DNA of 64,000 nucleotides, from the NCBI GenBank assembly GCA_024220505.1, contig JAKZZE010000022.1:124001-188000 (forward strand), in the 5' to 3' direction. Source of the DNA: Rhizopus arrhizus. Taxonomy: Eukaryota > Mucoromycota > Mucoromycetes > Mucorales > Rhizopodaceae. Below, piece after piece: positions 2,790 to 11,679 of this stretch; position 1 is the stretch's first letter, and every line of letters begins with the position of its first letter. The notes beneath the pieces are model-generated. The model saw only the letters and a list, made by a program, of their open reading frames with translations. It ran no database searches and was not told where the DNA came from. The position numbers and the translations under genes are program-made.

Positions 2790-3477
2790 ATGAAGTAAAG
2801 AATACAAGGGAATCCATCCATCTGCAACACACCAGTTAATCAATTTACATTTTAGGCTCGAGATCTGTTCCTTCTCTGGTCAAAAAATCTATCCTGCCAA
2901 GGGTAAGACCTACGTTCGTATTGACAGCAGGTAATCTTTATAAAATATTAAGATACAATTGTATTCATTTTGTTTTGTTGTATAGAGTACGTACCTTTTA
3001 GAATAAAACAGACATTATAACATTCGAAATAACAATTTGCATCATAGACTTTCCGTTTCATCAATGGTAAGACTGAATCTTACTTTCTTCAACGTTTGAA
3101 CCCTCGCAAGATCAGATGGACCGCCATTTACCGTCGTTTGAACAAGAAGGGTATGACTGAAGAAGTTCAAAAGAAGCGTTCTCGTCGTACTGTCAAGCAC
3201 GAACGTGCTGTTGTTGGTGCCTCTTGGGATGCCATCCGTGCCAAGCGTAACCAAAAGCCCGATGCTCGTGCTGCTGCTCGTCAAGCTGCTATTGCCAAGA
3301 GCAAGGAAGCCAAGAAGACTGCTGCTGCTGCCAAGAAAGCTAACCCCTCTGTAAGTTTTTTTTTTTGTAGTTGATACACAATGAGATACTAATCTTCTTC
3401 AGGCTGCTTCTCAATCCAAGGTCAGCAAGCAACAAGCCAAGGGTTTCGCCCCCAAGGCTGCTGCCACTTCTCGCTAA
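2790..3477 (+). CDS. RPL24: 60S ribosomal protein eL24 (RPL24), five exons including a proposed 1-nt exon
   Basis: Exons: 2790-2794, 2856-2930, 2986 (one nucleotide), 3048-3350, 3403-3477; 152 aa, close to the yeast protein (155 aa). The product is a basic protein of the large ribosomal subunit. The N-terminus [15 protein letters not shown], the core [20 protein letters not shown] and the lysine/alanine-rich tail ending AATSR are diagnostic. Exon 1 is only ATGAA. Exon 2 ends GACAGCAG and the next conserved exon begins ACTTTCCGT (TFRF), so the frame needs exactly one extra base. That base is supplied by tatag|A|gtacgt at 2981-2992, giving the expected D-S-R-T-F-R-F. Skipping it produces a stop codon 17 codons later. 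Splicing elsewhere in the gene uses ordinary GT-AG sites. Family assignment is certain; the 1-nt exon is inferred. Confidence 0.93.
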
Positions 3478-10800: not shown

Positions 10801-11679
10801 ATATTGAAGGTATAACTCTTTTACTTTGCTCTACACTTAATTCTCTCAACTTTTTCATTAGTCCACCAGTAACTGATCTATAACCACAGTTTTCTGGATA
10901 AATCAGCTGCTTCATACGATGATGAATTCTTTCATCTCCAGCAGATTCACACCCTTGCATTTCTGAATAAACAACCTATTGAAAGCTATGTATTAAATAT
11001 AAATTAACAAAAAACAAAACAAAAAACTTACACCAGCGTCTTCTCCTTTTCCATTAATATGATGTACTTCTGTATAATACCCAGATTCAGTTAATGTAGG
11101 ATATAATATATGATCTACATAAATAGGTAGAAGATTTAAAAATCCTTTTGATCCAGCCGTCAAAATCGTGTAACACGTATGATCCACATCTGTCCATGCA
11201 TTAGTGCCTTGAGCAAAAGCTCTATTAGCAAGTGAATCAAGTACACCCTTTTTAAATAAATCAGTTTCTGATCTTTTTTTATATGAAACACTTACCTTAT
11301 AAGGATATTGACGACTTCCTAAAAACACAAGACTTTGGAAAAAAAATTTGTTAAAAGTCTTTTATAAAAGTTAGTCAGACTCACTGTTCTAGAGTATGTG
11401 GACAGCCAAAGTCATCAAATGCTACGATAATATTAGTGACAGACTTCTTTTTTTTTTTTTCTCTCCCTTACTTTCTGTTGCCAGTGTGAAATAGCCATTG
11501 ACAGTAGGGGCTAAAAAAAAAACAGATCACTTTTTAGCTATAGCTTGTAATACACAACACATTATATAACCTTCAACATCTGCTAATATAACAGTTAATC
11601 CAGTTTTCTCGCTTTTGAATTTTGTAAATGTGACCCCAAATTTAGTGGGCACAGTGCAGATTTCCTTGTAATTATTCAT
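7885..11679 (-). CDS. M16-family zinc metallopeptidase (C05D11.1/YOL098C-like), 15 exons
   Basis: Exons from the 5' end: 11571-11679, 11472-11510, 11385-11421, 11296-11332, 11032-11247, 10825-10975, 10501-10769, 10138-10428, 9912-10084, 9581-9853, 9458-9528, 9024-9406, 8805-8967, 8124-8752, 7885-8070; 1,008 aa, all junctions in phase. It belongs to the inverted-zincin (pitrilysin) superfamily. The HxxEH motif is HTLEH at residues 58-62, followed by LVFLGSRQYPYKG, with a candidate third zinc ligand at E134 (YYTEVHH). Further family blocks are VVYSEMQG, RHYHKSYYRPDNLCLIVTG in the N half and LFIQYDH, VNLSAYIS and KGLAYSTRLRESVESGLLYF in the C half. Overall it matches the uncharacterised eukaryotic M16 branch of yeast YOL098C and nematode C05D11.1 rather than mitochondrial processing peptidase. 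Substrate unknown; likely cytosolic, since no targeting peptide is visible. Confidence 0.92.

Follow-up and report, generated by a model that had tools for sequence, protein, structure and literature searches.

The window, a stretch of 64,000 nucleotides at positions 124001-188000 of contig 15, contains a gene for the ribosomal protein eL24, the parts of which are collected in Table 1. The product is recognised as eL24 by the PF01246 (Ribosomal_L24e) model, which matched above cut-off, exon by exon, and in a full-length structure-sequence comparison the solved eL24 chain 7pzy_7 matched query residues 1-152 with an E of 4e-45. Between the end of exon 2, ..GACAGCAG (2930), and the next conserved exon, which starts at 3048, lies the element TATAG|A|GTACGT (2981-2992), in which a single A would stand between an acceptor and a donor. 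An earlier sequence-only reading of this DNA had located the end of exon 2, the A, the element and the start of the next exon correctly, in letters as well as in coordinates.

Table 1. Predicted parts of the eL24 gene, in window positions.
Feature	Positions	Strand	Description
eL24 coding exon 1	2790..2794	+	ATGAA, 5 coding nt
eL24 intron 1	2795..2855	+	61 nt, GTAAAG..TTTTAG
eL24 exon 2	2856..2930	+	75 nt, ends ..GAC AGC AG, phase 2
Upstream intron of the pair	2931..2985	+	55 nt, GTAATC..TTGTATAG, 3′ end T-rich; position common to 4/4 paralogs
Predicted single-nucleotide exon A	2986..2986	+	third base of the Arg27 codon AGA; flanks YAG|A|GTRNGT in 4/4 paralogs
Downstream intron of the pair	2987..3047	+	61 nt, GTACGT..CATCATAG; position is that of the phase-0 intron of two RLP24-type genes
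eL24 exon 4	3048..3350	+	starts ACT TTC CGT (T-F-R)
eL24 intron 4	3351..3402	+	52 nt
eL24 exon 5	3403..3477	+	stop codon TAA at 3475-3477

The genome (50.3 Mb, 41 contigs) was searched for the L24e family, and the 12 matches obtained belong to six genes, i.e., four eL24 genes, on contigs 15, 9, 41 and 11 (C15, C9, C41 and C11), and two genes on contigs 40 and 12 that we take to be of the RLP24 type. In each of the four eL24 genes, the last two bases of exon 2 are AG, followed by GTAA, and the next exon begins with ACTTTC or ACCTTC, while the junction element reads TATAG-A-GTACGT in C15 and C41, TTTAG-A-GTAAGT in C9 and TATAG-A-GTAAGT in C11. Exactly one base would thus be enclosed by the predicted 3′ and 5′ splice sites in each of the four paralogs. 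The upstream introns measure 55, 59, 66 and 52 nt and the downstream introns 61, 73, 53 and 70 nt; judged from sequence, these flanking introns (52-73 nt) are complete, with GT-AG ends in eight of eight, and their lengths are near those of introns 1 and 4 of the same genes (47-61 nt). The intron regions of the four copies align with scores of 7.0-28.0, against shuffle means of -5.6 to 1.8, so that their shared descent is visible. Outside the element the introns have diverged; TAGAGTA is the sole 7-mer common to the four regions, and no longer common word was found in them. The copies have two further features, namely a first coding exon of five coding bases (ATGAA) in all four, and an extra Ser codon at the end of exon 4 (window 3342-3402; NPS-AAS) in C15 and C9, absent from C41 and C11 (NP-AAS).

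The A is required both for the reading frame and for the conserved protein. With the A included, each of the four copies encodes an eL24 of 151-152 aa, nearly identical from copy to copy. When GACAGCAG is joined directly to ACTTTCCGT (2930 to 3048) without the A, the frame shifts and 16 wrong residues are followed by a stop at the 17th codon, which agrees with the stop predicted 17 codons on by the sequence-only reading; the same premature stop upon skipping of the A is obtained in 4/4 copies. A one-base frame problem is the usual sign of an assembly or sequencing error, and the window copy might be suspected of a sequencing slip, or of being a pseudogene. However, the same one-base need recurs at four loci, on as many contigs, all of them otherwise open and with a 151-152 aa product, which makes an assembly error very unlikely and in practice refutes an error of any of these kinds, whose probability is vanishingly small.

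Alternative splice joins were enumerated in the four copies. A first scan, which required a ten-residue upstream motif, found no open single GT-AG join in any copy, and the two-intron GT-AG scan gave 6, 4, 4 and 2 open solutions, all of which alter the protein except the one-base exon. A wider single-intron scan, from which the upstream anchor was dropped, found 13, 13, 11 and 13 open GT-AG joins, with residues lost in every one; the mildest, TAC|GTTCGT, uses a donor at 2914, which shortens exon 2 by 17 nt and deletes VRIDSR. Exon 2 joined to A and exon 4 is the sole enumerated canonical join that rebuilds the full V-R-I-D-S-R-T-F-R-F, and it does so in 4/4 copies. In the three solved eL24 alignments listed, of 86 matched, this stretch is represented by D-(S/N)-K-x-F-R-F of equal length. 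The assertion in the sequence-only reading that no alternative restores the frame holds for GT-AG pairs with both ends inside the interval, but not for a donor within exon 2 or an acceptor within exon 4, where in-frame joins exist at the cost of residues.

Several other structures were considered alongside these joins. Single canonical, GT-AC and AT-AC introns were set aside after the splice-join scans, and translational frameshifting was also considered. A zero-nucleotide recursive splice site was ruled out by the AG-A-GT found in 4/4 copies and by the frameshift upon loss of the A, and a stwintron by the fact that GT and AG are intact in both introns, with one exon base between the two, so that neither interrupts the other. 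A single non-canonical intron deserves a closer look: it would be either GT-AC, running from the donor at 2931 to an end in AGAC, or would have a TA donor or acceptor shifted by one base. The GT-AC form is in frame in 4/4 copies and gives D-S-S-F-R-F, one residue short, and a one-base shift at either end also yields Arg (AGG) and hence D-S-R-T-F-R-F. Such an intron would, however, be about 117-135 nt long, approximately twice introns 1 and 4, and would require four genes to share splice-site types that are rare or unknown, while leaving unexplained both the conserved internal element and a set of public protein models that read DSRV(R/S/C) at this point (see below). It is therefore extremely unlikely.

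The frequency of the element was compared with that in dinucleotide-shuffled versions of the intron region of each copy (5000 each, at least 35 nt on either side of the element). The strict form, YAG-A-GTRNGT, was found in 0, 0.18, 0.02 and 0.06% of shuffles for C15, C9, C41 and C11, respectively, and is observed in 4/4 copies, while a looser YAG-R-GT arose in 2.1-6.6% of shuffles per copy. Because the four copies are homologous, they are not independent trials and these rates must not be multiplied; the junction element exceeds chance. A second strict YAGAGTRNGT is present in the window at 11390-11399 on the + strand and is probably a chance occurrence.

The signals flanking the A are of good quality. 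The donor that follows it is GTACGT or GTAAGT, with G at +5 and T at +6 in 4/4 copies, compared with 0/4 for the donor of the upstream intron (GTAATC, GTAAAC, GTAAAA, GTAAAG). The acceptor that precedes it contains 11, 10, 9 and 9 T in 15 bases, and the acceptor of the downstream intron 5, 6, 6 and 5. Such signals are not unique to the element, as the intron 4 acceptors have 7, 9, 10 and 12 T in 15 bases and the intron 4 donors likewise have G at +5 and T at +6 in 4/4 copies. In a motif scan of the eight flanking introns, a TAAY branch-like motif was located 13-27 nt from the 3′ end in seven and was absent near the 3′ end of the eighth, the upstream intron of the window copy.

The single A is flanked by strong sites, which suggests constitutive use of the predicted exon. 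It has to be asked whether skipping of the A could instead be regulated, tuning the level of eL24 through mRNA destruction in the manner of a poison exon, an idea that is compatible with the one-base exon. Splicing autoregulation is known for other ribosomal proteins, and in 4/4 copies the skipped product would stop after its 16 wrong residues at a point 248-251 nt before the intron 4 donor. Yet the strong donor and the T-rich acceptor argue against regulated skipping, and a frameshift upon skipping is expected of any one-base exon. Regulated skipping appears unlikely, and constitutive splicing would be a simpler view than an autoregulatory switch.

Further evidence comes from public protein models. 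Three protein searches were run, from each of which the best 120 matches were listed (out of 315, 2000 and 298), and 255 distinct proteins (P0001-P0255) were counted; the orders to which the named genera are assigned in these counts are those we presume them to belong to. P0216 and P0217 (Lichtheimia) were counted as Mucorales, and the group of other organisms includes unnamed proteins. P0245 was scored intact by eye because its F-V-S was missed by the pattern, and P0253, an unnamed protein that is 97% identical to Lichtheimia ramosa and starts downstream of the junction, was set aside. In the first listing, 0/54 non-Mucorales models were aberrant, but the ranking favours intact models; since this first control was biased, searches centred on the Mortierella-type P0055 and on Lichtheimia were added. 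Among the matches listed, the junction is broken in 43 of the 62 Mucorales models, in all six Umbelopsis models and in one of the 186 others, the exception being P0132 (Benniella), whose start lies approximately at the exon that follows the junction. Gene finders are reported often to miss the smallest exons (PMC8831610), so that species with a one-base exon should show damaged models precisely here.

The nature of the damage is informative. V-R-x-D-S-R is kept in 15 of the 43 broken Mucorales models listed, and 8 of these 15 continue with V-(R/S/C): these represent five genera, with one model each from Mucor fragilis, Absidia glauca, Rhizomucor pusillus and Lichtheimia ornata and two each from M. 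circinelloides and Rhizopus stolonifer. If translation had run over the donor of exon 2 (AG|GT..), the R would be followed by a codon with T as its first base, and not by V, which means that R-V reflects AG, a purine and GTN. DSR-V-(R/S/C) is as expected if a one-base exon had been translated into its own donor, AG|A GTR NGT. The other seven of the 15 show different patches, among which P0029 and P0093 carry the frameshift L-S-V-S expected of direct joining. P0029 (Rhizopus arrhizus) also has a 38-residue stretch that is encoded exactly by the region upstream of the C9 copy, and P0023 (Rhizopus delemar) starts MLFCIEY-TFRF, where MLFCIEY corresponds to C41 translated over the T-rich tract, the acceptor and the A. 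The Umbelopsis models are damaged, and inspection by eye found the element directly exposed in none of them. The junction is intact in 19 of the 62 Mucorales models listed, whose protein alone fits either a one-base exon or another structure.

These models also bear on the mildest of the single-intron joins, by which one ordinary intron would begin at the cryptic donor TAC|GTTCGT (2914), end with the AG that precedes ACTTTC, and yield a protein without V-R-I-D-S-R. The join is canonical and in frame in 4/4 copies, and nine of the 43 broken Mucorales models among the matches listed, including P0006, P0016, P0048 and P0065, lack the six residues as a donor at -17 predicts. However, the equivalents of these residues are kept, with the same spacing, in 185 of the 186 listed models from outside Mucorales and Umbelopsis, the exception starting downstream, as well as in the three solved eL24 alignments listed. 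GTTCGT is simply a Val-Arg codon pair, and its use as a donor would account neither for the good donor at 2931 nor for the conserved YAG-A-GTRNGT. A structure of this kind is very unlikely, and the one-base exon between two ordinary introns of 55 and 61 nt, as put forward in the sequence-only reading, is the best reading of the four paralogs and the broken Mucorales models together. The same one-base exon would probably explain many of the wrong eL24 models of related fungi. Scans of genome-contig and viral-contig collections with the exon 4 protein returned no eL24 DNA of other Mucorales; from the protein models we infer conservation beyond the Rhizopus arrhizus genome, across Mucorales.

It is very likely that the one-base exon in eL24 is real. 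The model that we consider highly probable, as deduced from the sequence, is one in which two ordinary GT-AG introns lie one base apart in the eL24 pre-mRNA and are removed one after the other, the A at 2986 being retained constitutively as an exon and supplying the last base of the Arg codon (AG|A) in D-S-R-T-F-R-F, and the upstream intron being the younger of the two. The spliceosome would use both sites around the A. The shortness of the introns leads one to expect intron definition, and complexes assembled on an acceptor and a donor separated by a single base would presumably collide, so that sequential removal is expected. AG is the end of exon 2 as well as of the acceptor, so that the donor would meet the same ..AGA|GT before and after splicing of the upstream intron, and either order of removal could work.

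As to the origin of the pair, both RLP24-type genes contain one phase-0 intron (51 and 60 nt) at the same codon boundary, S-K|T-F-R-F, and no extra base. The downstream intron hence looks old, and the upstream intron was probably gained one nucleotide away from it. The simplest history would be that the downstream phase-0 intron is ancestral and that the phase-2 intron at AG|A is newer, inserted one base upstream, either in the Mucorales line or in a common ancestor with Umbelopsis. The Benniella model among the matches listed begins just before S-F-R-F, which hints at the same intron boundary in Mortierellales. As the four copies are homologous, part of their conservation is shared descent, and this was counted against the one-base-exon explanation. 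A more specific history, in which the one-base exon dates from an ancestor shared by Mucorales and Umbelopsidales and was kept in most eL24 copies because skipping controls the eL24 level, seems improbable.

One-base exons are already known, and eL24 would be a further, apparently old example. The statement in the sequence-only reading that Arabidopsis APC11 is the one reported case is outdated, since plant VPS55 and Fusarium CYP621A are also in print. The single-nucleotide exon of APC11 was shown experimentally, and its authors, Guo and Liu, favour sequential removal under intron definition on collision-type reasoning (PMC4674806). As in eL24, one A stands between two spliceosomal introns and is needed for the frame, but APC11 is a plant cell-cycle gene with a 422-nt interval (PMC4674806), whereas eL24 encodes a fungal ribosomal protein, its two introns are short and it has four copies. 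The 1-nt microexon of plant VPS55 is described as conserved throughout a large clade, absent from annotations and followed by a strong GTRAGT donor, in likeness to eL24, yet transcripts with and without it occur in some plants, and gene and kingdom are unrelated (PMC8831610). The Fusarium CYP621A exon is likewise fungal, consists of one base within a short interval (139 nt in F. graminearum) and was revealed by a frame conflict in a conserved motif; it is backed by sequence reads (PMC12940212). Its base is a G in the middle of a Gly codon of a rarely expressed Fusarium P450, whereas that of eL24 is an A, predicted over an order.

Related arrangements differ in their construction. Stwintrons resemble the eL24 pair as adjacent fungal introns needing consecutive reactions (PMC9024468, PMC5639578, PMC7138796), and joining of the outermost sites is reported to have given a frameshift in one case (PMC9024468), but there a splice element of one intron is interrupted by the other intron, whereas both eL24 introns appear complete, with one exon base between them. 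The mitochondrial one-nucleotide exons described in Ophiostoma rnl (PMC12308204) and placozoan cox1 (PMC5436844) also place one base between introns; these are organelle genes, and the Ophiostoma pair consists of group II introns (PMC12308204), as opposed to the spliceosomal introns of eL24. Titles and the beginnings of abstracts, partly sampled for broad queries, disclosed no one-base exon in eL24 or Mucorales, and an intron survey covering 76 ribosomal protein genes from 22 eukaryotes, Rhizopus oryzae among them, makes no mention of L24 in the main text (PMC1764039). If the present reading is true, a one-base exon occurs in a conserved ribosomal protein gene and was kept through duplication into four copies. 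It would offer a simple reason for the frequent errors in the listed Mucorales and Umbelopsis eL24 models, and eL24 would constitute a natural system for how the spliceosome treats two introns one base apart.

Some minor observations concern the matched proteins and their labels. On contig 9, approximately 870 nt upstream of exon 4 of the eL24 copy and on the same strand, lies a stretch that matches the starts of P0020 and P0021 of Rhizopus delemar, two proteins in which a stretch bearing PF09415 (presumably CENP-X) is fused with the second half of eL24. P0230, an eL24-type protein from Spiromyces aspiralis, bears the public label of a ferric-chelate reductase. P0124, an eL24 recorded for the plant Anthurium amnicola, shares 72% identity with a Mortierella-type eL24 along its entire length and may represent fungal contamination.
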